Shown here piece by piece: positions 18,726-37,179 of a stretch of DNA of 43,526 nt. The translations under genes were made by a program, and so were the position numbers. Position 1 is the first letter of the stretch. Every line of letters begins with the position of its first letter. Origin of the DNA: Bacteroidia bacterium (GTDB lineage Bacteria; Bacteroidota; Bacteroidia; J057; JANWXU01); contig JANWXU010000023.1 of the NCBI GenBank assembly GCA_025057395.1, forward strand, positions 1-43,526, written 5' to 3'. The notes beneath the pieces were generated by a model. That model was not told the DNA's origin. It made no database searches and worked only from the letters and a program-made list of their open reading frames with translations.

Positions 18726-20225
18726 TTAAAAAATGTGGTTAATCTCATACGTGTCTAAAAATTTTTTAGCGACTGTAATATCGTGCGAAAAAATTCGGTC
18801 TGTACTTGCTATAGGTACTTGTTGGCGAAAGTCATCTAAAATGGCTTCGAGAAGGGGAGAAGTTTTTTGTGGAAGTCTAAAGTAAAGAGCCTGGGATGCG
18901 TGCATGAGCTCAATAGCCAAAATAGTTTTCAGATTCTCTAATATAGTATAGGCTTTTGTAGCACTATTGGCCCCCATACTTACATAATCTTCTTGTCCAT
19001 TGGAAGAGGGGATGGAAGCTACAGAACTAGGGTAGCAGAGGTGTTGGTTTTGATTGACCAAGGCAGCAGCTGTATATTGCAAAATCATAAAGCCGGAATT
19101 TAAGCCCGGTTTAGGAGATAGAAAAGGAGGTAAATTACGTGTTCCAGAAAGTAATTGGTAAATACGCCTTTCTGCAATACTTCCTAGGTAAGTCATAGCT
19201 ATTGCTAAGGTATCAAGTGCCAGAGCTAGCTGTTGCCCATGGAAGTTTCCGCCAGCAAGGACTTGCCTTTCTTCAGGGAAAATACTAGGGTTATCACTAA
19301 CACTGGCAGCTTCTGTCTGCATAATAGTACTTACCCACTCTAAGGCATCTTTTACAGCACCATGTACTTGGGGGATGCAACGAAATGAATATGGATCTTG
19401 TACGTGTACAGAGGGGGCGTTAGCAATCGAGGAGGCTGCGCGTAAGATACGAATACGGTGAGCAGTTATTTGCTGTCCCTTATGGGGACGAATGCGATGC
19501 AATGCTTCTGCAAATGGTTCTTGGCAGCAAGCAAACGCATCTAGGCTAAGGGTAGCAATGATGTCTGCCCATTTTTCTAGCTTATTAAGATGTAAAAGAA
19601 TGTAGTACCCATAGGCAAGCATAAATTGCGTTCCATTTAAAAGAGCTAAGCCTTCTTTAGGTTCTAATTGCAAGGGCTCTAGATTCATTTGGGCATAGAT
19701 TTCTGCAGTAGAGTATAAATTGCCATTGCTCCAAATCTTACCTTCTCCTATTAACGGTAAGCAAAGATGAGCTAAGGGAGCAAGATCTCCGCTTGCGCCT
19801 AAAGAGCCCTGCGTGTAAACAACAGGCAAAAGATTAGCATTATAGAGGGTAATTAAGCGTTCTACTACTTCTTTGCGTACGGCAGAGTAGCCATAGATAA
19901 GAGCTTGAATTTTTAGAAGAAGCATTATTTTTACTATTGGCAAAGGCACCCACTCCCCCGTACCGCAGGCATGAGAAAGCAACAAATTATGTTGTAGCGT
20001 ACTAAGTTCGGTATCTGATATTATAGTATTACATAGAGACCCAAATCCGGTATTAATACCATACAAAGCATTAGGATTTTTTTCTAAACATTCTTTGAGA
20101 AAGAGATAGCTTTTTTCTAAAGCTTGTACCGCTTCGGTGCTTAAAGCGAGTTGCGCGTTTAGAATATCTGTAAGTTTATCAATAGTAAGGTGATTAGCAG
20201 GATGAAGATAGTATAGAGCAGGCAT
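18726..20225 (-). CDS. hutH: Histidine ammonia-lyase
   Basis: It releases ammonia from histidine to give urocanate, the first step of histidine degradation. The 499-residue protein carries the MIO-forming Ala-Ser-Gly at residues 144-146 in GSLGASGDLAPLAH and the YGINTGFG motif at 55-62. A downstream QDPYSFRCIPQVHGA (near 285) and a FHGQ (around 330) are as in HutH. All catalytic features look intact. It stands alone: no hutU, hutI or ftcD gene is in the window. A TTTTTAATT-rich spacer separates it from the sensor gene. It starts five bases after the stop of the upstream DUF697 gene, which suggests co-transcription. Confidence 0.95.
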   Translation of the reverse strand: MPALYYLHPANHLTIDKLTDILNAQLALSTEAVQALEKSYLFLKECLEKNPNALYGINTGFGSLCNTIISDTELSTLQHNLLLSHACGTGEWVPLPIVKIMLLLKIQALIYGYSAVRKEVVERLITLYNANLLPVVYTQGSLGASGDLAPLAHLCLPLIGEGKIWSNGNLYSTAEIYAQMNLEPLQLEPKEGLALLNGTQFMLAYGYYILLHLNKLEKWADIIATLSLDAFACCQEPFAEALHRIRPHKGQQITAHRIRILRAASSIANAPSVHVQDPYSFRCIPQVHGAVKDALEWVSTIMQTEAASVSDNPSIFPEERQVLAGGNFHGQQLALALDTLAIAMTYLGSIAERRIYQLLSGTRNLPPFLSPKPGLNSGFMILQYTAAALVNQNQHLCYPSSVASIPSSNGQEDYVSMGANSATKAYTILENLKTILAIELMHASQALYFRLPQKTSPLLEAILDDFRQQVPIASTDRIFSHDITVAKKFLDTYEINHIF

Positions 20226-22802: not shown

Positions 22803-22810
22803 TATATTTG
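22803..22810 (+). promoter_or_regulatory. Candidate -7 promoter element (TATATTTG) upstream of the large adhesin-like gene
   Basis: TATATTTG fits TAnnTTTG exactly, and a start of transcription about seven bases later would leave a leader of about 15 bases to the ATG at 22832. A -33 TTG is not well spaced. It overlaps the alternative TTG start at 22808, which argues for the ATG as the real start. Confidence 0.4.
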
Positions 22811-22831
22811 ATAACTAAAGCTTTTAAAAGG

Positions 22832-25800
22832 ATGGGGAAAAGATTAACAATATTTTTACTTGCTTGCTTTTTAGGATACTTTTCAAACTTGAAGGGACAA
22901 AGGCCAGAATGTAGGCCTACCATAGAAGTATGTCGACCTACTCCTACTGTGCCCGTTTGTTTAACTCCTAAGGTACTTGATGAGGGAACTGTGGGGATTC
23001 CCTACAGCAGTAGCTTAAACCTCAATATAGGCTTGCAGGCAATTTCACAAGGACGAACTTTTAATATAACTGCGGTAGAGATTTTAGGAGTTACTAACTT
23101 ACCCGCGGGCTTAAGTATCGCTTTCTTGAGTGCTAATTCTAACCATGGAAATAATGGTGTGATAAGTAATTTTCCTGCGCGGCTGGCTGCTGCTAATACG
23201 CCCTATGCTCTATGCGCTTCCATTACTGGAACTCCTTCGGCGCCTACGCAGCCTACCGATTCTGTTACAATCCAGTTACGTCTAAATCTCTCTATTGGTA
23301 CGGGAGGACCAAGTATTGGCATACCGGTTCCAGTGAATGTTAATTTTCATGTTCCTATAAAAAATGGAATTATTGTGCCAGTATTCAGAGTAGACGCTGG
23401 TGCTGATAGAACAATCACGTGTGGTGCACAAACGCAATTGCAGGCAACAGTTACTCCCCCTCAAACTCAGGGTGTGACTTTTTCTTGGTCCCCTACTACA
23501 GGACTTTCTAATCCTAACATAGCGAACCCAGTAGCTAGACCTACCGTCACTACTACTTACGTAGTAACAGCTGCAAGTGAGACTTTAGGCCTTAAAGCAT
23601 CAGATACAGTGGTAGTATTTGTTAATAAAGCCAATTTTAATCTAAATTTTACGGCGAATCCTACAGTGATTACTGAAGCTCCATATACTACTACTTTTAC
23701 GATTGCTAATTTTAGTAGAGGCTTGCAATATACTCTGTTCCCAGGCGATGGAAATAGTATTCCGCTGTTTACTAATACCTTTGCATATACCTACTCTGAT
23801 ACGGGCGTATATTCCCCTATGCTAGTAGCTAGAAATTTGATAGGGTGTACTGATACTTTACTTCGTAGAGACTACATTCGTGTAGAATCTCCACTTCTTG
23901 TTTTTGTGAATCCTAGCAGTACCACAATTACGTGTGGTTCAATTACACGAGCCACAGCTACAACTAATAAAACAGGTAATATTGAGTGGAGTTGGGAACC
24001 TACTACAGGAGTAAGTAATCCTAATATTGCTAACCCTTCACTATCTCCAACCCAAACTACTATTTATACAATAACAGCTCGTTTGGATAATCAAAAGGCT
24101 TCCACTACTATGAAGGTAGTAGTAGAGGGAGCAAACTTTAATGTAAATTTTACTGCTAATCCCACTAATCTTACTACACGCCCTTTCACTGTAAATTTTA
24201 CTAACTCAACCCCTTCTTCCTCAAATTATACCTATACATGGGACTTTGGAGACGGTAATACATCTAATCAAGTAAACCCAAGGCATACTTATCAAAATAA
24301 CGGTACTTATACAGTTCAGCTGATTGCTACAGATCCCAATACGGGCTGTAAAGATACCTTAACGCGTGTAGGGTATATTGTTTGTGATGATCGCACGAAT
24401 GCTCCCTTAACTGTAACTGTAACAAATGACACAGCTATAAACTGTGGCGACCGTGTTCAGCTGGAAGCCAAAGCTAATTTACCTAATACTACTTTCCAAT
24501 GGGCCCCTACTACAGGTTTAAATAATCCTAATATTGCTAACCCCGTAGCTACTCCTCCTGCTACTACTACCTACACTGTTACTGCTCGTAATGGTATCCA
24601 ATTAGCAAGAGCAGTAGTAGTTGTGACTATAAAGCCAGTTGAAATTACTAATTTGGAGGCTGAGTATTGTACCACTTCTCCAGCTTTTCAGATAACAGCT
24701 AGTGTACCAGGGGGTACTTATTCGGGTCCTGTTAATGGATTGACACCGCAAGGACTTTTTACACCTAGCCAAGCAGGACCAGGTAATTATACTATTCGTT
24801 ATAGTGGTACACGTAATGGCTGTAGTTTCACTACTAGCAAACCTGTGAGAGTAGTTGCTCCCCCAACAGCTACTATAGAAGGGCTTGCTAATCGGTATTG
24901 CAATAATTCACCTGATGTTCCGCTCAAGCTTAGCCCCGAGGGAGGACGCTTAAGTGTAGAATATGCTTTTTCTATTCCGGGTGCTCCCCCAATTTCTGGT
25001 GGTATTAATGGTACTAGTTTTTCACCCTCTACTCTTGCACCAGGAAACTATAGGGTTCGCTATACGGGTACTTCGGGTATTTGTACTTATAATACTGTGA
25101 GCAACCCAGTCCTTGTTGTTGCTGCACCGCAAGTGAGAATTTCAGGTCTTAATTCTACGTATTGCCAGAATGATCCTCCATCCACTATGACGGCAGAGCC
25201 TGCAGGCGGTGTATTTTCAGGTAGCGGCGTTAGTGGAAATACTTTTAATCCTGCGGAGGCTACGCTAGGGAAGGTCGATATTATTTATAAGAGAGACCCC
25301 ACTAATCCCAATGAATGTCCCGCTATAGATACAGTTACAGTAACTGTTTTCCCTACGCCAGACTTTGTTTTTATTTTTACTCGTCCATCGCCGGGTCAAA
25401 GTAATGGCTCAATTACTATAAATGCTACAGGAGGCACCCCTCCTTTCCAGTATAAGTTAAATGATGGTAATTTTCAGAATAGTAATGTGTTCAACAATTT
25501 ACCTGCAGGCACTTATGAGGCTACTGTACGTGATGCAAATGGCTGTACTCACACACGTACGTTAAACCTTACTCCCAACTGTCCGAGCTTCACCATTCGA
25601 GCGAGCGGGCCCACTTCTTTTTGCAGTGGTCCTAATAACTTTGTATTGCTAAGCTTGAATCCGCCGCCAGCTCCTGCTAATACTACTTATCAGTGGCAAA
25701 GAGATGGCGTAAATCTTCCAGGCCAAAATGCAGCAAGTACGCAAGCTAGGCAAAGTGGTGCTTATCGTTTAATTGTTCGAGTACCCTTTTGTCCTGACAC

Positions 25801-27301
25801 AGCTACTAATGTAATTAATGTTACAGTGCATCCTTTGCCGGTAGTAAGTGCTACAGTAACTGATGCTACTGGGGCCAATAATGCTGACGGACAAATAGTA
25901 GCTAGAGCCTCGAATGGGCAAGCGCCCTATCAGTTTCGTTTAGGTACTACAGGCAACTTTCAAAATGATTCTGTTTTTCGAAATCTAAGACCTAATACCT
26001 ATACAATTACCGCTAGGGACGCAAGAGGATGTACCAGTACGGCTGTTACCTTTACTGTTTCTGTAAAAATTATCTGTCCTAATCCTACCATTACCACTGA
26101 AAATGCCCTAGAATTTTGTGCGGGGGGAGAAGCTATTCTGCGAGCAGATATTGGGGAAGGTTTTAGTTATCAATGGTTAAAGGATAATACTCCTATTAAT
26201 GGTGCTACAAATCAAACTCTTAGGGTTACGGAAACAGGTAACTACAGTGTAATTATAAAAAAGAATGGATGTGAAGATGTAAGGAGTGAGGGGGTAATAG
26301 TAAGCGTCTCGCCTGTGCCGGGCTTAACATATACGGTAGAAAATCCATTGGGTAATTTGCAAAATGGAAAAATTGTAGCTAGAGCAGTGGGCGGCACAGA
26401 ACCGTATGAGTATGCTTTAGGGAATGGTAGTTTTACCCCTAATGGTACTTTTGATAATTTAGGAGCGGGTTCTTATGTCTTAAGGGTAAAAGATAGCAAA
26501 GGTTGCCAAGCAGAAACCACTGCCGTTTTAAACAGTACTCCCGTGAACTGTCCTACTAGCGCGCAAATTACTGCCTCAGGACCTCTTGCTTTCTGCCAGG
26601 GCGGAAATGTTGAGCTAAGCGCTAATACCGGTACTGATTATATTTATGTTTGGCGCAGAGATGGGCAGCTAATTAGTGAAGCTAGAGGCAGCCGCCTTAC
26701 AGTTGCCCAAAGTGGAAGTTACAGTTTGTCAATCACGCGTCTAGGATGTGCTGATTCTGCATACGCAGCTCCGGTAAACGTAGCAGTGCATCCATTGCCA
26801 CAATTAAGCACAACAGTTACAAGTGCTGTAAATGGTAATAATGGTGTTATACAGGCAGCCGCTACAGGTGGAACAGCCCCTTATCAATTCCAACTCAATA
26901 ATCAAGCTTTTCAGAGTAGTGGAACTTTTAGAGACTTGGCACCGGGTAATTATATTGTAAGAGTACGTGATAGTAAAGGGTGCCAGGCGCAGGCTCAGGT
27001 TACTGTGGAGAGTACTACCGTTACAGAGTACACTGTTTGGCCAGGTGATGCAAATAATGACGGCGTAGTGGATGTAACAGACTATTTTATTATTGCTAGT
27101 GGCTTCGGCAAAACCGGACCTCCACGTACTGAAAAAGGCTCAGAATGGAGAGGCTACAAAGCAAATATTTTATGGCCTTCTACTACTAATTATAGGGGAA
27201 CAACGATTAACGACCTTTACCTAGATGCTAATGGCGACGGTGTAATTGACATGCAGGATGTAGATTTAACTAAGCAATATCGCGGTAGAGAAAGGCGCTA
27301 A
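22832..27301 (+). CDS. Large adhesin-like repeat protein with PKD and SprB-type repeats and dockerin-like end
   Basis: From ATG 22832 the protein has 1489 residues and a signal peptide (MGKRLTIFLLACFLGYF). It is modular. A putative Ig-like N-terminal region (about 30-200) comes first. Three units then carry the recurring motif W-x-PTTG-x-x-NPNIANP (DNA near 23486, 23993, 24500). A PKD domain with WDFGDGNTSNQVNPRHTY lies near 465-510. Four SprB-like repeats follow (each ending Y-x-x-x-V/A-R/K-D-x-x-G-C), alternating with Ig-like units such as YQWQRDGVNLPGQ. The end (about 1400-1489) holds two EF-hand-like loops, GDANNDGVVDVTD and LDANGDGVIDMQD, resembling dockerin type I. No T9SS sorting domain is visible. 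The role is probably adhesion or gliding-surface structure. Confidence 0.85.
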   Translation: MGKRLTIFLLACFLGYFSNLKGQRPECRPTIEVCRPTPTVPVCLTPKVLDEGTVGIPYSSSLNLNIGLQAISQGRTFNITAVEILGVTNLPAGLSIAFLSANSNHGNNGVISNFPARLAAANTPYALCASITGTPSAPTQPTDSVTIQLRLNLSIGTGGPSIGIPVPVNVNFHVPIKNGIIVPVFRVDAGADRTITCGAQTQLQATVTPPQTQGVTFSWSPTTGLSNPNIANPVARPTVTTTYVVTAASETLGLKASDTVVVFVNKANFNLNFTANPTVITEAPYTTTFTIANFSRGLQYTLFPGDGNSIPLFTNTFAYTYSDTGVYSPMLVARNLIGCTDTLLRRDYIRVESPLLVFVNPSSTTITCGSITRATATTNKTGNIEWSWEPTTGVSNPNIANPSLSPTQTTIYTITARLDNQKASTTMKVVVEGANFNVNFTANPTNLTTRPFTVNFTNSTPSSSNYTYTWDFGDGNTSNQVNPRHTYQNNGTYTVQLIATDPNTGCKDTLTRVGYIVCDDRTNAPLTVTVTNDTAINCGDRVQLEAKANLPNTTFQWAPTTGLNNPNIANPVATPPATTTYTVTARNGIQLARAVVVVTIKPVEITNLEAEYCTTSPAFQITASVPGGTYSGPVNGLTPQGLFTPSQAGPGNYTIRYSGTRNGCSFTTSKPVRVVAPPTATIEGLANRYCNNSPDVPLKLSPEGGRLSVEYAFSIPGAPPISGGINGTSFSPSTLAPGNYRVRYTGTSGICTYNTVSNPVLVVAAPQVRISGLNSTYCQNDPPSTMTAEPAGGVFSGSGVSGNTFNPAEATLGKVDIIYKRDPTNPNECPAIDTVTVTVFPTPDFVFIFTRPSPGQSNGSITINATGGTPPFQYKLNDGNFQNSNVFNNLPAGTYEATVRDANGCTHTRTLNLTPNCPSFTIRASGPTSFCSGPNNFVLLSLNPPPAPANTTYQWQRDGVNLPGQNAASTQARQSGAYRLIVRVPFCPDTATNVINVTVHPLPVVSATVTDATGANNADGQIVARASNGQAPYQFRLGTTGNFQNDSVFRNLRPNTYTITARDARGCTSTAVTFTVSVKIICPNPTITTENALEFCAGGEAILRADIGEGFSYQWLKDNTPINGATNQTLRVTETGNYSVIIKKNGCEDVRSEGVIVSVSPVPGLTYTVENPLGNLQNGKIVARAVGGTEPYEYALGNGSFTPNGTFDNLGAGSYVLRVKDSKGCQAETTAVLNSTPVNCPTSAQITASGPLAFCQGGNVELSANTGTDYIYVWRRDGQLISEARGSRLTVAQSGSYSLSITRLGCADSAYAAPVNVAVHPLPQLSTTVTSAVNGNNGVIQAAATGGTAPYQFQLNNQAFQSSGTFRDLAPGNYIVRVRDSKGCQAQAQVTVESTTVTEYTVWPGDANNDGVVDVTDYFIIASGFGKTGPPRTEKGSEWRGYKANILWPSTTNYRGTTINDLYLDANGDGVIDMQDVDLTKQYRGRERR

Positions 27302-27518: not shown

Positions 27519-28715
27519 ATGATTAAAAAATATATTTTTTTACTTATAATTCTTTTTTTTAGCTTAGGGTGTAAGGAATCTAAAGAGGATGCAACTAAAT
27601 CCAGGGCTTCTGCATCAAATCCTAATTTTCCAGTAGCTCAGTCCAAACCACAACCTATTTATGATAGGCAAATCAATGATTGGGCTCGCTACTTGGCAGG
27701 CTTACCTCCCTTGCCCGGCAGTCAATTAGATAGCATAGACTATCGCATGGAAGCTAAAAAACATCAGGAGTTTTTCGAAAAGGCGTGGGCATGGAAAGAA
27801 AAAAAATTATTGCAGCCCCTTGCAGAATGGGCAAAAGTAGAACTAGCTGCAGAGCAACAGCGAGCCAAAACAGTTTTTTATCCTTTTAGTGGTCCCGATT
27901 TTATGACTATCCATGCTCTTTATCCTAATGCTGAACGTTATATTTTGATGGGTTTAGAAAATGAAGGTCGTATTCCTCCCTTGGAGCAAATTCGAAGAAG
28001 AGAATTAGCTGCAACTTTAGAAAACCTACGAATTTCGTTAAATGATATTCTCAATTATTCCTTTTTCAAGACCAATGACATGCGGGCAGAATTAAATCGT
28101 TTTCAAATTCGAGGTACTTTGCCTATACTACTGGCTTTTATTGCGCGAAGAGGAAATACAGTTTTAGAAGTAGAGCATGTTCAGTTAAGTGCTAATGGGG
28201 AAATAAAGCTTGGTAATCCTAATGCTAACCAACAACCAGAAGACAGTACTGTAACAGGGGTGCAGATTTTATTTCGAGCCTCAGAAGATGCGCCAGTGCA
28301 GAAAATCATTTACTTTTCTGCTAATATTAATAACACTTATATAAAAAAGTTAAAAGGTATGGTGCCCTACATACAAAGCTTAGAGCCTGCTTATACTTAT
28401 TTAAAGTCGGCTTCATATTTGATGCATGCCGACCATTTTTCCATTATTCGTGATTTGATACTAAAAGTTAGTCGCAGCCTTTTGCAAGATGACTCAGGTA
28501 TTGCTCTTCGCTTTTTTGATAGGCAAGTGTGGGACCTTACATTTTATGGCACTTATACCGCTCCTATACCCTTATTTGCCGCTCGTTATCAGCCAGAACT
28601 TCGTAAAATTTATGCTCAAAAAGAAGGAGTGAAGCCCCTTACCTTTGGAATTGGCTATCAATTCAGAGAAGGAACCTCTAATTTGATGTTAGCAAGGAAA
28701 AAAATAGCTCAATAA
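27519..28715 (+). CDS. Lipoprotein of unknown function
   Basis: The 398-residue protein has a lipoprotein signal with a lipobox SLGC (cysteine 18). After a polar linker with KSRASAS, the body is mostly helical and moderately conserved-looking, with the phrases VFYPFSGPDFMTIHALYPNAERYILMG (part only, about 120-145), YSFFKTNDMRAELN (about 185-197) and a C-terminal FGIGYQFREGTSNLM. I do not recognise a named family with confidence. The ATG start has a short AT-rich spacer after a terminator, so it likely has its own promoter. The purB gene begins seven bases after its stop, so both may share a transcript. Proteins of this shape occur in many Bacteroidota. Confidence 0.75.
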   Translation: MIKKYIFLLIILFFSLGCKESKEDATKSRASASNPNFPVAQSKPQPIYDRQINDWARYLAGLPPLPGSQLDSIDYRMEAKKHQEFFEKAWAWKEKKLLQPLAEWAKVELAAEQQRAKTVFYPFSGPDFMTIHALYPNAERYILMGLENEGRIPPLEQIRRRELAATLENLRISLNDILNYSFFKTNDMRAELNRFQIRGTLPILLAFIARRGNTVLEVEHVQLSANGEIKLGNPNANQQPEDSTVTGVQILFRASEDAPVQKIIYFSANINNTYIKKLKGMVPYIQSLEPAYTYLKSASYLMHADHFSIIRDLILKVSRSLLQDDSGIALRFFDRQVWDLTFYGTYTAPIPLFAARYQPELRKIYAQKEGVKPLTFGIGYQFREGTSNLMLARKKIAQ

Positions 28716-28722
28716 ATATGCT

Positions 28723-30099
28723 ATGGAATTAAGTGCTCAGGCATTATATGCTTTATGTCCTCTGGATGGAAGATATTATGAAAAGGTAAGAGTCTTAAGA
28801 GAGTATTTTTCGGAATGGGCTTATTTTCAATACCGTTTGTTGGTAGAGGTAGAGTATTTAATAGCGCTTAGTACGTATAAAGTGCTACCAGCTTTATCTC
28901 AAGAGGAGGTAGCTTCTTTGCGTACAATTTATCAAAATTTTGATGTAGCGGGTGCACAAAAAATTAAGGAATATGAAAAAAGCACCAATCACGATGTAAA
29001 AGCTATTGAATATTACTTGCGTCAAGTATTGGCTCAGAAGCTGTTAAATACTCAAAAATTGTCAGTCTATCAAGCGTTTGTGCATTTTGGTCTCACTTCG
29101 CAGGATATTAATAATACGGCTATTCCTCTGATGCTTCGGCAAGCTCTACATGATTGCTATATACCTGCTCTAGAAAAGCTACTTAGCAAGCTTACTGAAG
29201 TGGCAATTGCTTGGCGTAAAGTACCTATGCTAGCTTTTACTCACGGACAGCCAGCTAGCCCTACTACTTTAGGCAAGGAATTTTTGGTTTTTGTAGAACG
29301 TCTTCAAAATCAGCTGCATTTGCTTCAGCATTTAGAATATCCAGCTAAGTTTGGGGGGGCAACAGGTAATTTTAATGCTCATTTGTTTGCCTTTCCTAAT
29401 GTAGATTGGCTAAGTTTTGCAAATTATTTTGTAGAGCAAATTTTAGGTTTACGGCGTAATCAAGTAACTACTCAAATTGATCATTACGATGGGCTAGCCG
29501 CTATTTTTGATAATCTTCGTAGAATTAACATAATATTATTAGATTTTTGTCAAGACTGCTGGCTATATATTAGTAAAAATTATTTCAAACTTAAGATAGT
29601 AGAAAGTGAGGTGGGCTCTTCCACTATGCCCCACAAAGTAAACCCTATTGATTTTGAAAATGCGGAAGGTAATTTGGGGATTGCCAATGCCTTGCTAGAG
29701 CATATGAGCCGGAAATTGCCCGTTTCGCGCTTGCAACGTGACCTTTCAGATTCTACGGTGCTTAGAAATATCGGTTTACCTGTGGGCTACAGTTACTTAG
29801 CTATCCTTTCTATTGTTGCGGGTCTAAGCAAATTAGAAGTGAACTTACCAATTTTACAACAAGAATTAGAACAACAGTGGGTAGTTCTTGCAGAGGCTAT
29901 TCAAACCGTACTTCGTAAGTATGGAGATAACCAAGCCTATGAAAAACTTAAGGCTTTAACGCGAGGAGTAGATTCAGTTTCAAAAGAATTATTCAGTAAA
30001 TTTATAGAGGAACTTGCTGTCCCTAAAGAGGAGAAAGATAGGCTTTTAGCACTTACTCCTGATACTTATTTGGGGTATGCGCCCGAATTAGAACACTAA
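28723..30099 (+). CDS. purB: Adenylosuccinate lyase
   Basis: It catalyses two fumarate-releasing steps in purine synthesis (SAICAR to AICAR and adenylosuccinate to AMP). The 458-residue protein has TSQDINNTAIPLML (near 125), THGQPASPTTLGKE (near 170) and the superfamily signature SSTMPHKVNPIDFENAEGN near residue 298. The start MELSAQALYALCPLDGRYYEK is the classical N-terminus of the longer (gammaproteobacterial-type) PurB. All active-site motifs look intact. It converges with the ABC transporter ATPase, sharing four bases at the stops. Confidence 0.97.
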   Translation: MELSAQALYALCPLDGRYYEKVRVLREYFSEWAYFQYRLLVEVEYLIALSTYKVLPALSQEEVASLRTIYQNFDVAGAQKIKEYEKSTNHDVKAIEYYLRQVLAQKLLNTQKLSVYQAFVHFGLTSQDINNTAIPLMLRQALHDCYIPALEKLLSKLTEVAIAWRKVPMLAFTHGQPASPTTLGKEFLVFVERLQNQLHLLQHLEYPAKFGGATGNFNAHLFAFPNVDWLSFANYFVEQILGLRRNQVTTQIDHYDGLAAIFDNLRRINIILLDFCQDCWLYISKNYFKLKIVESEVGSSTMPHKVNPIDFENAEGNLGIANALLEHMSRKLPVSRLQRDLSDSTVLRNIGLPVGYSYLAILSIVAGLSKLEVNLPILQQELEQQWVVLAEAIQTVLRKYGDNQAYEKLKALTRGVDSVSKELFSKFIEELAVPKEEKDRLLALTPDTYLGYAPELEH

Positions 30100-30773
30100 T
30101 TAATAATACACCCATCCTTTAAAGTGATAATTTTATCAGCTTGAGCAGCAAAATGATTATCGTGAGTTACTATTAAAAAGGTTTGTCCTTGTTTTTGGTT
30201 GAGTTCTCGAAAAATTTGATACACTAAAGTGGCATTCTTTGAATCGAGGTTACCAGTGGGTTCGTCTCCCATGATAATTTTAGGTTTATTAATAAGTGCT
30301 CGTGCAATGGCTACACGCTGTTGCTGTCCGCCTGATAATTGATTAGCTTTTTTATAAGCAATACCGGATAAATTTAGCATTTCCAAGATATTGAGCGCCT
30401 CTTTTTCAATTTCTTGCTTAAGAGAATGATTGAGCTTAAGAGCCGGTAACATAACATTTTCTAAAACTGTAAATTCTGGAAGTAAATAATGAAATTGAAA
30501 TACGAAGCCAATATGTTCATTTCTTAGCTGGGCAAGGTCTCGAGCTGATTTATTTTTTAGTAATTCTCCTGCAAAATAAATTTCTCCGGTATAGTCGGTA
30601 TCCATAGTGCTTAGTACATATAACAAAGTGGATTTACCACTTCCTGAAGGACCTACAATGGCAATAAATTCACCCTCGTGAATCTCAAGCGTAATATCTT
30701 TTAACGCTTGAAATTCTACAGGTTTGTGGTAAAATTTATTAAGGTGAAAGGTTTGAAGAATGGGTAAGGGCAT
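30096..30773 (-). CDS. ABC transporter ATP-binding protein (LolD/MacB-like)
   Basis: The 225-residue ATPase has Walker [10 protein letters not shown] at residues 41-49, signature [15 protein letters not shown] from 146, Walker [13 protein letters not shown] with the catalytic glutamate at 171, and the switch histidine at 204 (VTHDN). A LolD-type N-terminus and the companion FtsX-like permease make it the energiser of a MacB/LolCDE-type exporter. It is encoded two bases downstream of the permease gene. Confidence is high for the class. The substrate (lipoprotein, antibiotic or peptide) is not known. Confidence 0.95.
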
Positions 30774-30775
30774 AG

Positions 30776-32038
30776 CTACTTGGATCTTAAAATTTCAATA
30801 GGGTCAATTTTTGCTGCTTTGCGTGCGGGCAGGTATCCGGCTATAGCTGTTACAAGCAGGGCAAATAAAAAGGCAAACGCAAAAAGTTCGGGTGAGGTAT
30901 TAAATTTTAAGTATTCCACAGAGATAAATCCCTGTACATTCATGCGAATAGAACCTACTATCTTTTGAAGTAAAAAGCCCAAGCCTAAACCTCCTATTCC
31001 TCCAACTGTGCCAATGATAAGCGATTCAGCAAGAAAAATTTTTGTAATCTCTTGACTTGTAAAACCGATAGCTTTAAGAATAGCAATATCTGAAAATTTT
31101 TCATAGATAATCATCATCAAAATATTAAAAATTCCAAATCCTGATACAATTAATATTGTTGTAATTACTAAGTAGGTTACCATATTTTGAATTCGAAATA
31201 TGCCAAAAATATTAGCATTGGCTTCTTTCCAATCCAGAGCTTTATAGCCCCACTTCTTTTGTAACTCAGAGGCTACCTGAGAAGATTGTTCGATATTTTT
31301 TAACTTGAGATTGATATCTGTAATAAAGCTATGATCTACTCCTAGCAGTATTTGGGCATTTCGAATGTTTACATAAGCTCTAGATTTATCTTGCTCCACG
31401 ATTCCTGTTTTATTGATAGCTACTACTTTCATTTGTAGGCTAATACCTGAGGGTGTAATTACCATGATATTATCATTGAGTTGTACACCTAACAGCTGCG
31501 CAAGACCAGCGCCAATAATAATTCCATTGGGTATTGTTTGGAGTTGTTGAATAGAACCCGCTATGTTATTTTTTTCTACATTGAAAAGCATATTTTCTTT
31601 TTCTATATGTACGCCCACTATTCTACCGCTAACCTGTGCTGTGCCCGATTTAAAGATAGCTTGCGTACTAAGGCTAGGAGAGACACCCTCTATGCGCTTA
31701 TCCTTTTCTAATAGGCGTACAATTTCGGAGGCAGCACGAATCTTGTTTATTTCATCTTTAGGCTTAGGATTATTAATTACTATCCAATGATTTTGGTAGT
31801 CGGAAGCTTGAGATAAGATGCTGGACCGCGAAGCTGAAGTTTCTTGATAAATTCGAATGTTAGCACTGGTATTGATGGTTTGCTCAATAAATAGTTGCTG
31901 GAAGCCCGTCATAAGACCCCCTTGAAAAAGAAAGATAGCAATTCCAAAGGATACTCCTAGGGTAGCCACTAGCGTTTGCCGCTTTTTAGAAAATAAATGT
32001 CGCAGGGCAATAGAAAGAATAAGATTAGAGGTTTTCAT
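30776..32038 (-). CDS. FtsX-like/MacB-type ABC transporter permease
   Basis: The 420-residue protein has one N-terminal membrane helix (about 20-42), a large periplasmic domain (about 43-275) typical of MacB_PCD, and three C-terminal helices (about 285-310, 335-360, 385-410) ending with the GYLPARKAAKIDPIEILR cytoplasmic tail. This is the canonical FtsX arrangement. The ATG overlaps the preceding adaptor stop as ATGA (32035-32038). Its substrate is unknown. Confidence 0.93.
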   Translation of the reverse strand: MKTSNLILSIALRHLFSKKRQTLVATLGVSFGIAIFLFQGGLMTGFQQLFIEQTINTSANIRIYQETSASRSSILSQASDYQNHWIVINNPKPKDEINKIRAASEIVRLLEKDKRIEGVSPSLSTQAIFKSGTAQVSGRIVGVHIEKENMLFNVEKNNIAGSIQQLQTIPNGIIIGAGLAQLLGVQLNDNIMVITPSGISLQMKVVAINKTGIVEQDKSRAYVNIRNAQILLGVDHSFITDINLKLKNIEQSSQVASELQKKWGYKALDWKEANANIFGIFRIQNMVTYLVITTILIVSGFGIFNILMMIIYEKFSDIAILKAIGFTSQEITKIFLAESLIIGTVGGIGGLGLGFLLQKIVGSIRMNVQGFISVEYLKFNTSPELFAFAFLFALLVTAIAGYLPARKAAKIDPIEILRSK

Positions 32039-33138
32039 GGTTTTATAATTTCTGTTTTTTCGTCTATTCCCCCAAGGATTTCTACGTATTCCAAATCTTC
32101 TATTCCTTTAATAATTTTTATGGTATCTTGTTTTTCTTTACGTATCACGTTTTCGTTATTGAATAGGAAACTTTTGGGTATTACTAGTGCATTTTTTCTC
32201 TCTGAAATAATAATATTGGCTTCAAGACTTAAGCCTGCATAAAATTCGAAATCTTGAGTGTGAATTGTTGCAATGATTTTGCAAGTTTTGTTAGTAGGAT
32301 TAATTCGCGGATAAATTTTCTGAACTTGCCCTTCAAAGAATTTGCCGCGGTAAGCGCTAATCTCGTAAATTACCTTTTGTCCAGGTTTAACAAAGCTAAT
32401 ATCTTTTTCATCGATGTATAATTCAGTCTCAAAGTCTTGAGCATTGCCAATGACTAGTAAGGCTGTATTTGTCGTTACAAGTTCGCCTTCTTGAGCCATT
32501 AAATCGTAAACTTTTCCATCAATTGATGAAAGTATGGTAAATTCATTAAGATTGCTTTGTTGAGATTCTAGTAAAAGTTTCGCATTCTGATACTCGGTTT
32601 GTACCTGATTTTCTATCTGACGTAGATTATGTAAACTTTTCTGATAGTTGCGTTTAGCAATTTCAAATTGGGTTTTTGCTTGCTCATATTGTTGTGTAGT
32701 AACTACCTTTTGGCTCCAGAGGGTTCTGTAACGCTCAAAATTGATGGAATCTAATTCATAGCGAATTTTGGCTGATTCTTTTTCCTGACGAGCAGCATTG
32801 ACTAAAGGAGATTGCTCTGAAAGGTTTTTTTGTGCTAAAAGGAATTGATTTCTAGCTATTTCTAAATTTTTTTCATTGGTTTCGCTGCGAATAACCACTA
32901 AAGGTTGCCCTGATTTTACTATTTGTCCTACTTCTACGAGTATTTTGCTTACATACCCCGATATTTTAGGGACTACGTTATAAATATGTTTAGGATTTAT
33001 TTTTCCGGAGGCAAAAACTGCGAAAACAATATCCTTTCGAAAAGGATGGATACTTTGCTCATTTTTACTATTACAGCTGTTATTACCAATAGCTAGCAGT
33101 AGTAAGGTTAAAATCAAACTTATTTTTTGAATATCCAC
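32035..33138 (-). CDS. HlyD/MFP-type periplasmic adaptor of the ABC exporter
   Basis: The 367-residue protein has a hydrophobic N-terminal segment and a possible lipobox at GNNSC, which is weak. Then come a lipoyl-like hairpin (VPKISGYVSKILVEVGQIVKSGQPL, about 40-65), a long coiled-coil hairpin (about 75-180) and a beta-barrel part with VIGNAQDFETELYIDEKDISFVKPGQKV. The start is a GTG at 33138. No in-frame ATG lies upstream before a stop, so GTG or a nearby TTG is the start. It couples the inner-membrane MacB-type pump to an outer-membrane channel. No TolC gene is adjacent. Confidence 0.9.
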   Translation of the reverse strand: MDIQKISLILTLLLLAIGNNSCNSKNEQSIHPFRKDIVFAVFASGKINPKHIYNVVPKISGYVSKILVEVGQIVKSGQPLVVIRSETNEKNLEIARNQFLLAQKNLSEQSPLVNAARQEKESAKIRYELDSINFERYRTLWSQKVVTTQQYEQAKTQFEIAKRNYQKSLHNLRQIENQVQTEYQNAKLLLESQQSNLNEFTILSSIDGKVYDLMAQEGELVTTNTALLVIGNAQDFETELYIDEKDISFVKPGQKVIYEISAYRGKFFEGQVQKIYPRINPTNKTCKIIATIHTQDFEFYAGLSLEANIIISERKNALVIPKSFLFNNENVIRKEKQDTIKIIKGIEDLEYVEILGGIDEKTEIIKP

Positions 33139-33259: not shown

Positions 33260-33288
33260 TTGACAAAACTTTAATCTTATTCTATACT
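33260..33288 (+). promoter_or_regulatory. Promoter of the coiled-coil gene pair
   Basis: TTGACA (33260-33265) is followed after 17 bases by TATACT (33283-33288), an unusually good general sigma-70 match for a Bacteroidota genome. The TTG and TACTTT also partly fit the Bacteroidota pattern. It lies 50 bases upstream of the ATG. Confidence 0.55.
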
Positions 33289-33337: not shown

Positions 33338-34534
33338 ATGGAAGCAATTATACCACATAATTATACTCTTTTATACGAAGATATTTTTTTGTTAAAAACC
33401 CTCGAATCTATGCAATTAAGTTATGATGTCCAAGAGTCGATGGGCAGGGTCACGATTATTGTGAAGGCCGTGGACGATTTGGGGCAGGCTCAGAATTTGG
33501 AATTTATTCAAGTTGATGAAGTAGACGGGCAATCTAAGGAGGATGAAACTTATTTTGTGGTATATCATCAGTCTGTATCTCTTTTTAATAATTTTTTAGC
33601 TAAGTTAAGAAAGAAGTATGATGAGCTGCACTCTAAGGGGCTAATCCATTTATTTGCAGACGACCCCGAAGTGATGCGTCGTGAAGAAGTAATTAGTTAT
33701 AGAAAGAAGCAAGCGAAGCGGCAAATAAAGAATTTAAAACGCCGAAAAAAGAAATTAAATGAAAAACAAGAAAGTCTCTTGAAGAAAAAAAAAGAGCTAT
33801 ATGTACAACGGAGTATACTAGTTGACGAAGCAGAAAAACTAGAACAAGAAATAGACTCTAAGACAAAGCAGGCATTGCAAGAGAAGCAAAAAGAATTTGA
33901 GCAGCAAATAGCAATGTTCAATCAAAAGGAAGAAGAAATAACCAACTTAATTGAACAAAAGGTAAATGAAAGTTTACCTAGTGCATTGGAATCTAGCTCC
34001 ACAATAAGGAGAATAGAGCAAAAGAAGAAGCTTATTGCAGAGCAAATGAAAGTTTTAGAAGAATATTTTTCCAAAAGGCTCAAAATTTTGGAAGATGAAT
34101 TAGAAATGCTTATTAACGAACGTGAACTCCTTGAAGTGAAGGAGGAAAGTATCAACTCTCAGGAGCAAATTTTAAGTGATGAAATGTCACGAAAAATAAA
34201 TCTAGGGCGTCAAGAACTAGAAAAATGTATAGACGAACAGCTAGCTGAAGACGAAGAAAGTTTGAAGCAGATGGAGCATAGAACTAATGAAATAAAAGAA
34301 AAAATTAGGTTTATGCAAGATGAAATGCGAATAGGGGTAGACTATAAGGTTCGGCAAGAATTTAAGATCCTTAATATTCGAGAAAGAGAATTAGACCGTG
34401 AAAGTAAATGCCTTAAAGAGTTGGAGGAAAAAATTAACCAAGAGCTGCAAAAAAATCCTGAAATTAAGCAGCAATTAATAATTGAGTTAGCTAAGGAAAA
34501 TAGTAAAAACAATAATAATAAAAAACAGAAGTAA
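33338..34534 (+). CDS. Coiled-coil protein with a small N-terminal head, member A of a tandem pair
   Basis: The 398-residue protein has no signal peptide or membrane helix. A head of about 100 residues shows an alternating beta/alpha pattern, with YEDIFLLKTLESMQLSYDV, GRVTIIVKAVDD and a YFVVYHQS strand. From about residue 108 it is one very charged Lys/Glu-rich coiled coil with heptads, for example KKLNEKQESLLKKKKELY and ELEMLINERELLE. It ends NNNNKKQK. I do not recognise a named family. Member B (64 bases downstream) has a head with the same order of hydrophobic residues, so they are probable paralogues. Coiled coils can resemble SMC, KfrA or cytoskeletal proteins, so similarity in the coil alone means little. 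Confidence 0.75.
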   Translation: MEAIIPHNYTLLYEDIFLLKTLESMQLSYDVQESMGRVTIIVKAVDDLGQAQNLEFIQVDEVDGQSKEDETYFVVYHQSVSLFNNFLAKLRKKYDELHSKGLIHLFADDPEVMRREEVISYRKKQAKRQIKNLKRRKKKLNEKQESLLKKKKELYVQRSILVDEAEKLEQEIDSKTKQALQEKQKEFEQQIAMFNQKEEEITNLIEQKVNESLPSALESSSTIRRIEQKKKLIAEQMKVLEEYFSKRLKILEDELEMLINERELLEVKEESINSQEQILSDEMSRKINLGRQELEKCIDEQLAEDEESLKQMEHRTNEIKEKIRFMQDEMRIGVDYKVRQEFKILNIRERELDRESKCLKELEEKINQELQKNPEIKQQLIIELAKENSKNNNNKKQK

Positions 34535-34598
34535 TCCTTAATTTTTTATTACCAAAAGTTTATTCTTATTAACATAAACTAAAAAACTACTATAACAG

Positions 34599-35825
34599 AT
34601 GGCTAATACTACCCTAGCAAACAATCCACAGAACAGCAAACTATCAAAACAAGTTATCGGCATTTATCAGGATGCTATTCTGAAGGCTTTAGCTTACCAT
34701 AATATTGAATGCGAGGTTCGTGAATCCTTGCAAGAATCCAAAATTATTGCAAAGGTAGAAAGTTTACAAAATACTAAAATAACTATAGAGTTCATTTTTG
34801 AGCGAGGGCAATATGTTTTTTATGCACCTTCTGATATTCTGGATATATTTGTTCATGTATCGCATTTTAGTAGGGGAGGATACAAATTCCCTTCTACGCT
34901 TTCCGATCTTTTATCACTGATTTCGTGTACATATGATGAAATTTGTAATGTTCCTGCTGTTTTTTATAAACAAAGTTGGAAGGAAAGAGTATTAAATAGA
35001 AAGTTTAAGCATATTAGAGAGCAGGAGGAGGAATTATACGAGCTAGAAACAGAAAAAATAGAGTTACAAAAGCAATTAAACAAGGAATCTGGGCTTTATG
35101 AGCGAATATTGCAAAAAGTAAAGTCCAAGGAGAAGGTATTATTGCGAAAGATTCGAAATATTCAAAAACAAAGAGAACAAATGGATCAGGAAGTTATCGG
35201 AAGGGTAGGGCAAGCTCTATTAATAAAGGAACGCGAGGTTTCGGTTTTTGAAGCGGCACAGGAATATAGAAAACAAAATTTTTCTCGAGAAGTAAAAGAA
35301 AAACTTGATCAGCAAATAGAATCAGTAATAGCCCTAGGTAAAAAGGAGATTGAAGAGAAAGGGCAGTTAGTGGAGCAAAAAAAGAAAGAATACGAGGAAA
35401 AATTAGCGCAGAAAGAAGAAGTAGTAAAGCAAGAGCAGTTAACTGTGGAAGTCAAGGAAAATTTACTTGCTTCTAGAGAGGCAGCAATTGGGAATAGAGA
35501 GAAATTCATGAGTGAGGAAGTTGCTCAAAGGATTGCACATGAGTATATTGAAAAATTAACTTCTAGAAAACGTGCTATAGAATTACGTAAACAAACTTTG
35601 CTGATAAAGGAGAGAGTAATAGAGCAGGAATTTCAAGCAGTAAAAAGTGAGTATGAATGCTTTGAAAGAGAGGTTCTTGCTCAAATTTCACCCAGGTTGA
35701 ATAAAATCATTCAAAAACAAAAGAGGCTAGAAAAATGGAGGCAACATTTAGAGGAGCGCAAGAAGATAATTGATGAAATTAAACGAAGAAGGCTACAAAA
35801 AGGCTATAAAAAGGATAAACTTTAG
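34599..35825 (+). CDS. Coiled-coil protein with a small N-terminal head, member B of a tandem pair
   Basis: The 408-residue protein is cytoplasmic by sequence. Its head (about 15-130) includes YQDAILKALAYHNIECEV, SKIIAKVESLQNTKITIEF and FPSTLSDLLSLISCTYDEI. The first two align by eye with the corresponding part of member A. Residues about 135-400 are a charged coiled coil with repeated E/K heptads (EEELYELETEKIELQKQL, REKFMSEEVAQRIAHEY). The tail is strongly basic (KRRRLQKGYKKDKL). The stop codon sits inside a hairpin that likely terminates transcription, so the pair is a closed transcription unit. The function is unknown; filament, scaffold or DNA/membrane organiser are all possible. Confidence 0.75.
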   Translation: MANTTLANNPQNSKLSKQVIGIYQDAILKALAYHNIECEVRESLQESKIIAKVESLQNTKITIEFIFERGQYVFYAPSDILDIFVHVSHFSRGGYKFPSTLSDLLSLISCTYDEICNVPAVFYKQSWKERVLNRKFKHIREQEEELYELETEKIELQKQLNKESGLYERILQKVKSKEKVLLRKIRNIQKQREQMDQEVIGRVGQALLIKEREVSVFEAAQEYRKQNFSREVKEKLDQQIESVIALGKKEIEEKGQLVEQKKKEYEEKLAQKEEVVKQEQLTVEVKENLLASREAAIGNREKFMSEEVAQRIAHEYIEKLTSRKRAIELRKQTLLIKERVIEQEFQAVKSEYECFEREVLAQISPRLNKIIQKQKRLEKWRQHLEERKKIIDEIKRRRLQKGYKKDKL

Positions 35826-35842
35826 AGTTTATCCTTATAGCC
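35802..35842 (+). terminator. Terminator-like hairpin overlapping the coiled-coil B stop codon
   Basis: The left arm GGCTATAAAAAGGATAAAC (35802-35820) and right arm GTTTATCCTTATAGCC (35827-35842) pair with a three-A bulge. The six-base loop contains part of the stop codon, and a short T-rich stretch follows. Confidence 0.7.
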
Positions 35843-36097
35843 TAGACTATATTTTTGATAGAACTAATCGGCAATATTAATAATATCGTACTTGCTCCCT
35901 AAGATTCTCTAAGATCGTAGATTAGAATATATAATAGCTTTGATAATTCGAGAAAGACTTTTAATCTTAGTGACGCCCAAGATAGTGATTGCGTATAGCA
36001 TGAAGGACAATCTTTGAATGAGGACTCCCAATCAAAATAAACACCTGCAGGAGGGATATAGAGTCTGAAATTAAACTTAAAAATAAGTACTAGATAA

Positions 36098-36859
36098 CTA
36101 AATAACTAACTCTAGTTCATCATAAGCTAATTCGATATTTGGAGGGAGTTTACGGTTTTCTTCTTCGTGCTTTCCAAGTAGGTGGGAGATATGGGTAAGG
36201 TAAGCTTTTTTAGGTTTTAGAAGTTGAATAATTTCTATAGCCTCAGAGACAGTAAAGTGAGAAATATGCTTTTCATGGCGCAGGGCATTAAGTACTAAGA
36301 TATCCAAATTTTGCAAAAGTTCCATGGAGGAAGGAGGAATATAATTAGCGTCTGTTACGTAGGCAAAGTTATGGATACGGAAGCCTAATACAGGCATTTT
36401 ATGATGGAGTACAGGAACAGGTGTAATGAGGAGATCTCTTAAATAAAAAGGACGATGATCAATTATGTGTATTTCAAGTTGAGGAATACCTGGATATTTA
36501 TTATCCTCGAAAATATAAGAAAATTCTTGCTCTATGCCACTTAAAGTGAGGGCATCAGCATAAATAGGCATAGCTTGAGCTTGTCGAAAATTAAAAGCCC
36601 GAACATCGTCTAACCCTGCTGTATGGTCTTTGTGTTTATGTGTAAAAAGGACGGCATCTAGCCTTTTAACTTTTGCTCGCAGCATCTGTTGCCGAAAGTC
36701 TGGGCCAGTATCAATTACAAAAGTTAGATTATTATCTTCTACAAGGATAGAACTCCTTAGCCTTTTGTCTTTAGAGTCTGTTGAGGTGCAAACAGCACAA
36801 TTACAAGCGATAACAGGTATGCCCTGAGAAGTACCAGTGCCTAAGAAAATGACTTTCAA
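36098..36859 (-). CDS. PhnP-like metallo-beta-lactamase-fold hydrolase
   Basis: The 253-residue enzyme has FLGTGTSQGIPVIACNCAVC with a CxCxxC-type cluster (about 19-24) like that in PhnP, a structural zinc site. The catalytic metal motif HKHKDH is at 74-79, followed by a later ALRHEKHISHFT and a final HISHLLGKHEE. This set is that of MBL-fold phosphodiesterases such as PhnP and YcbJ-like proteins. The likely substrate is a cyclic phosphate or similar small ester. No phosphonate gene is nearby. It starts 14 bases after the stop of the small hypothetical gene upstream, which suggests a shared transcript. Confidence 0.88.
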   Translation of the reverse strand: MKVIFLGTGTSQGIPVIACNCAVCTSTDSKDKRLRSSILVEDNNLTFVIDTGPDFRQQMLRAKVKRLDAVLFTHKHKDHTAGLDDVRAFNFRQAQAMPIYADALTLSGIEQEFSYIFEDNKYPGIPQLEIHIIDHRPFYLRDLLITPVPVLHHKMPVLGFRIHNFAYVTDANYIPPSSMELLQNLDILVLNALRHEKHISHFTVSEAIEIIQLLKPKKAYLTHISHLLGKHEEENRKLPPNIELAYDELELVI

Positions 36860-36873
36860 GACTTTATTATTTT

Positions 36874-37179
36874 TTATGTTTGAGGAGGTTCTTGTTGCAA
36901 ATTTAATTGAGCTTTGAGGTCATTAATTTTTCTTATTTCTTTTACGAGTTTTTTTTGTTCCTCGGTAAGAGCTTCCCAGTTCAAATTAATGTTATTAATT
37001 ACATCAATTAGTACATTTACTCTTCCTTCTAGTGTATAAAATTTATTCACCATCACTAAGTTTTGTTTTTCCAGAACACAATAGCCTCCCTTAAAATTTC
37101 CTTTTTCGTATCTTACTCTAAATCCAAGTTGCTCTAGTAGTTCTTCTAAACGTTCCTGTACGCGTTTAGTTACTTTCAT
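36874..37179 (-). CDS. Small conserved hypothetical protein
   Basis: The 101-residue protein begins MKVTKRVQERLEELLEQLGFRVRYEKG with a helical start, then contains KGGYCVLEKQNLVMVNKFYTLEGRV. This looks like the small proteins of unknown function common next to MBL-fold genes in Bacteroidota. The last part is helical (WEALTEEQKKLVKEIRKIND) and ends with a proline-rich tail. No signal or membrane segment is seen. No function can be given. Confidence 0.7.
   Translation of the reverse strand: MKVTKRVQERLEELLEQLGFRVRYEKGNFKGGYCVLEKQNLVMVNKFYTLEGRVNVLIDVINNINLNWEALTEEQKKLVKEIRKINDLKAQLNLQQEPPQT

Follow-up and report, generated by a model that had tools for sequence, protein, structure and literature searches.

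Two adjacent genes of a Bacteroidia bacterium (assembly GCA_025057395.1), which we call P1 and P2, may encode a lineage-restricted, tandem-duplicated pair of coiled-coil-rich, intermediate-filament-like structural scaffold proteins, a reading to which we assign a probability of roughly 40%. In the mechanism that we propose, each protein would be a cytoplasmic rod made up of a small, alpha/beta-looking head and a segmented coiled coil of about 40 nm. The rods would pair in parallel as homodimers, heterodimers or both, and the paired rods would then assemble laterally or end to end, with the diverged heads and the basic tail of P2 determining what the assembly binds. P1 and P2 may also assemble with one another. 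The pair lies within the 43,526-nt window analyzed here, the forward strand of contig JANWXU010000023.1.

The gene pair and its probable transcription unit

The first gene, P1 (33338–34534, + strand), encodes a protein of 398 residues with a head (residues ∼1–114), a coiled-coil rod (∼115–392) and an Asn/Lys-rich tail, and the second, P2 (34599–35825, + strand), encodes a protein of 408 residues with a head (∼1–126), a coiled-coil rod (∼127–404) and a basic C terminus. Both open reading frames are found where an earlier note on this DNA had placed two adjacent genes for proteins of about 400 residues, and their codon usage is host-like. The mean log relative codon frequency is −1.006 for both, compared with −0.87 to −1.10 for the neighboring genes and about −1.24 for random synonymous codons. 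Because their synonymous codon usage equals that of their neighbors, we regard P1 and P2 as genuine, resident genes. The GC content of the pair, 33.8–34.6%, is slightly under that of most neighbors.

On the 5′ side lies a divergent MacA/B-like export operon (30096–33138, − strand) encoding an HlyD-type adaptor, a MacB/FtsX-type permease and an ABC ATPase, and on the 3′ side a convergent gene for a metallo-beta-lactamase-fold protein (36098–36859, − strand). With both flanking units on the − strand, the pair does stand alone in its unit, as had been claimed. The spacer between P1 and P2 is 64 bp long and contains no structured element, and a single transcript probably encodes both proteins. The good promoter that had been reported is recovered as a putative sigma-70-like element, TTGACA-17-TATACT (33260–33288, + strand), which matches the consensus at 11 of 12 positions and is located ∼50 bp before the P1 start codon; an equal match occurs in ∼1.4% of shuffled 200-nt upstream regions when one strand is considered.

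The terminator described in the earlier note is borne out in part. A very stable 18-bp hairpin with a 3-nt bulge (35801–35843; −21.8 kcal/mol, z −6.0) surrounds the end of P2, whose stop codon sits in or beside the loop, but inspection of the + strand after P2 revealed no canonical intrinsic terminator. The + strand T-tract is weak, with TATATTTTTG occurring only ∼5–15 nt past the hairpin, and T-rich sequence directly follows the stem only when the − strand is read. Because this T-rich run abuts the stem on the − strand, the hairpin may serve the convergent gene as well or instead, and it may constitute a candidate, possibly bidirectional, transcript end between the convergent genes. The 250 bp beyond it contain no open reading frame of at least 60 codons.

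Several other genes were noticed in the window. Next to the metallo-beta-lactamase gene lies one for a 101-residue protein with no Pfam match (36874–37179, − strand); several families of the order keep it at this position, at 42–50% identity. In PADLOC, an AAA ATPase-like protein (1066–2376, + strand) strongly matches PD-T4-4_A (E 3.6e-59); the next open reading frame (2441–2821) encodes a small exported-looking protein with a CTSCH haem-binding motif and is not an evident PD-T4-4_B partner. Further along are an aromatic amino acid lyase of the histidine/phenylalanine ammonia-lyase family (18726–20225, − strand; E 4e-174), a 1497-residue protein (22808–27301, + strand) whose PKD and SprB repeats occur together with a dockerin-like match and which may be a gliding/type IX-type secreted adhesin and, just upstream of adenylosuccinate lyase, a 398-residue protein with a lipoprotein-like N terminus and no Pfam match (27519–28715, + strand).

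Rods, heads and the origin of the pair

The architecture agrees with the head and long charged coil described in the earlier note. Heads of ∼115–125 residues are followed in each protein by ∼280 residues of coiled coil, in which 43–44% of residues are Asp, Glu, Lys or Arg and hydrophobic positions recur with a period of ∼3.6 residues. The heptad register scores are 68.8 for P1 and 62.9 for P2, against 42.1 ± 6.2 and 45.9 ± 5.6 for the respective shuffles, and each rod contains eight or nine register discontinuities. No internal rod repeats rise above a pattern-keeping null, and direct repeats at the DNA level are not collinear. In single-sequence AlphaFold2 models of the full-length proteins, the rods form a near-continuous helix, with pLDDT values often of 75–94 in P1 and lower in P2. 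The heads are poorly determined in the same models (pLDDT mostly 25–55). At this low pLDDT, the predicted elements of the P2 head are a helix, three or four strands and a helix, and those of the P1 head are strands and one helix, so that the element order shared by the two heads is suggestive only. Judged by composition and predicted strands, the heads look folded and of an alpha/beta kind. Neither protein has a signal peptide that we could find, and no hydrophobic segment of either has the length and strength that a membrane helix requires (maximal 19-residue hydropathy of 0.69 and 1.19), in keeping with the cytoplasmic location that had been assigned to them. The net charge is −11 in the P1 head region, +15 in the P2 rod and +8 in the last 30 residues of P2.

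We consider it likely, from sequence comparison, that P1 and P2 are diverged paralogues that arose by tandem duplication. In the rods, residues 139–287 of P1 (33752–34198, + strand) are collinear with residues 173–312 of P2 (35115–35534, + strand) at 25% identity over 151 columns (BLASTP E 1e-4; in the reverse direction E 2e-5 over residues 143–287). A banded alignment of the rods scores 182 at a protein offset of +24 to +27, compared with 149 ± 12 for pattern-keeping shuffles (maximum 165 of 25), 156 for reversed rods and 93 ± 25 (maximum 156) in 42 comparisons with natural coils, namely MukB and SbcC of E. coli and the SMC protein of this genome; these are small samples, and coiled-coil statistics are prone to inflation. 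Against these natural coils, neither P1 nor P2 gives a BLASTP E value lower than 0.026. Full-length global alignment scores 179 against 114 ± 14, with none of 300 shuffles as good. The fact that the rods are collinear, above shuffled, reversed and natural-coil controls, supports an origin by tandem duplication. The earlier proposal of a paired, diverged coiled-coil system is supported as well.

The heads add a shorter stretch of likeness. Residues 12–57 of P1 (33371–33508, + strand) align with residues 22–66 of P2 (34662–34796, + strand), and BLASTP of head against head returns 34% identity over 47 residues with E 0.012 in a single comparison; the shuffle p value is 0.007–0.008 for local and 0.06–0.17 for global alignment. 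The motifs that had been described as common to the heads do occur in the same order, with less identity than was claimed: Y-E-D-I-F-L-L-K-T-L and II-V-K-A-V in P1 correspond to Y-Q-D-A-I-L-K-A-L and II-A-K-V in P2, and V-x-E-S is present in both, as DVQES and EVRES. The offset changes from +9 in the head to +25 in the rod, which amounts to an extra stretch at the head–rod junction of P2.

An unlikely alternative to duplication is that two unrelated rod proteins became neighbors by chance and resemble one another through common coiled-coil composition. Coiled coils do yield spurious matches, the likeness of the heads rests on 47 residues with a global alignment that does not stand clear of shuffles, and an ungapped, pattern-keeping comparison of 40-residue rod segments found nothing. 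Against this, the 150-column collinear rod match beats all three kinds of control, and the adjacent genes are alike in head/rod order, length and strand.

Family searches and distribution

No known domain was found in P1 or P2 above the cut-offs of the family libraries (Pfam, NCBIfam and PADLOC), so the earlier statement that the head matches no known family holds for these libraries. The nearest candidate, DUF6579 (PF20219), was rejected since residues 25–112 of P1 score 18.9 bits against a curated cut-off of 27.2 and P2 has no match; the 396 genomes of our phylum sample contain no member of this family over the cut-off, and we found no mention of it in the literature. An SMC-type ATPase (NCBIfam SMC match, E 0.034) and DndD (PADLOC, E 1.7e-5, residues 102–395) were likewise set aside, as both matches cover coiled coil only and Pfam shows no ATPase domain. 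The remaining PADLOC matches of the pair have E values above 0.001. A sequence search of solved structures returned no meaningful match, and Foldseek searches with the low-pLDDT single-sequence models gave no E value below 0.001; XisI-like, frataxin-like and adenylate-sensor entries, at E values of about 1–3, were not counted as evidence.

No credible relative was found when each full-length protein was compared with 60 relatives, each head with about 395 relatives, or a two-head profile with 396 genomes of the phylum. The genome matches in these searches were weak (E 3e-4 or worse): the two P2 matches inspected are response regulators, and others are stop-containing, short, or at E 0.002–0.006. 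The organism's own genome yielded no third copy, and searches of phages and plasmids by tblastn no credible relative. Peptide-pattern scans of genome contigs from 84,980 species and of viral contigs gave no confirmed match, although these scans would miss distant relatives because they require near-exact stretches of eight residues. Of 22 genomes of the order, 20 carry the metallo-beta-lactamase gene, and none of the 11 neighborhoods read has a comparable pair beside it; of two high-charge open reading frames there, one resembles a transposase by eye and the other a protein that is exported or sits in the membrane. Within the genomes searched, the pair looks orphan and lineage-restricted. Orphan here refers to absence, among the relatives sampled, at the level of the order and above, because this genome was the only one of its family searched.

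This distribution also bears on the possibility, which we think improbable, that the genes are a recently acquired or fast-evolving accessory pair, such as cargo of a mobile element or a defense system, with heads that act in sensing or as effectors and coils that are only a side feature. Their occurrence in this genome only among those searched, their absence from the metallo-beta-lactamase neighborhoods read in relatives and their slightly low GC content would all suit such a history. Their codon usage is nevertheless host-like, neither a tRNA nor a gene of a mobile element adjoins them, no terminal repeat beside them is convincing, the PADLOC matches cover coiled coil only (DndD) or lie above E 0.001, and no viral, phage or plasmid relatives were found.

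A possible scaffold and its counterparts

Bacterial rod-domain proteins have been defined by more than 80 residues of coiled coil together with the lack of a signal sequence, transmembrane segment and known functional domain (PMC2680258). Register scoring, periodicity and helical models give ∼280 such residues in each of P1 and P2, both lack the excluded features, and under this definition they would count as rod-domain proteins. Several proteins chosen in similar ways form filaments (PMC2680258, PMC7002697, PMC2776988), and the function of a rod-domain protein must be demonstrated case by case (PMC2680258). As judged from its sequence, the pair appears to belong to a known architecture class and to no named sequence family. 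Rod proteins without known function are frequent in bacteria, many coiled-coil proteins are not cytoskeletal, and orphans among coiled-coil proteins are numerous and evolve fast.

The genome of Helicobacter pylori is likewise reported to encode a set of cytoplasmic rod proteins, Ccrp58, Ccrp59, Ccrp1142 and Ccrp1143, which polymerize without a cofactor (PMC2776988, PMC4379086). The consecutive numbers of Ccrp1142 and Ccrp1143 suggest that their genes, like P1 and P2, are neighbors. The Ccrps are not known to have a small alpha/beta head, no sequence relation to P1 and P2 is shown, and their filament formation is experimental, whereas that of P1 and P2 is proposed. The actinobacterial FilP/AbpS rod-domain family and crescentin share with P1 and P2 a segmented rod and the lack of any other known domain or transmembrane segment (PMC2680258, PMC10873595). 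FilP proteins have N-terminal motifs, at the borders of the first two coils, that are conserved across actinomycetes (PMC2680258, PMC10873595), and this family description sets them apart from P1 and P2, which form a diverged tandem pair without detected relatives. The cyanobacterial CCRPs Fm7001, Slr7083 and Syc2039 are similar in kind, being hypothetical proteins of 280–650 residues of which some are taxon-restricted and some form filaments, but they are encoded by single genes in another phylum and were chosen for unstructured heads and tails (PMC7002697). By comparison, the heads of P1 and P2 have low pLDDT yet are predicted to contain strands and helices in single-sequence models, a suggested difference that would count against the scaffold reading.

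The eukaryotic kinetochore rods Ndc80/Nuf2 and Spc24/Spc25 each combine two diverged subunits with small heads and long coils. Their likeness to P1 and P2 is a mechanical analogy only, with no sequence or structural match. A comparable arrangement underlies the main functional rival to the scaffold, namely a discrete, parallel P1–P2 heterodimer in which the paired heads hold one partner and the P2 tail contacts nucleic acid or lipid. We judge this two-headed tether rather unlikely, though it accommodates the paired, diverged heads with their similar predicted element order, the near-equal rods of ∼280 residues, and the acidic P1 head region (net −11) and basic P2 rod (+15) and tail (+8). On the other side, head pLDDT values mostly below 50 allow no fold to be assigned, Foldseek found nothing below E 0.001, the unit contains no partner gene, and the heterodimer gains no advantage over homodimers in a crude g/e′ charge count. 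In-register stutter positions common to the two rods are not significant in number (p 0.05–0.18), which, like the charge count, also speaks against the scaffold reading.

The scaffold is still the simplest account of the pair. Its most elaborate form, in which tandem-duplicated rods with a head fold new to structure libraries assemble obligatorily into a cytoskeletal or organelle-organizing heteropolymer, seems to us very improbable. The probable duplication in place and the head that matches no family are mildly unusual. If P1 and P2 do assemble together, they would illustrate cleanly how in-place duplication of a bacterial rod protein can supply it with a heteromeric partner, whether obligate or optional, as happened in eukaryotic intermediate filaments and kinetochore rods, and would show the speed at which structural coiled-coil genes can arise or diverge beyond recognition within one bacterial lineage.
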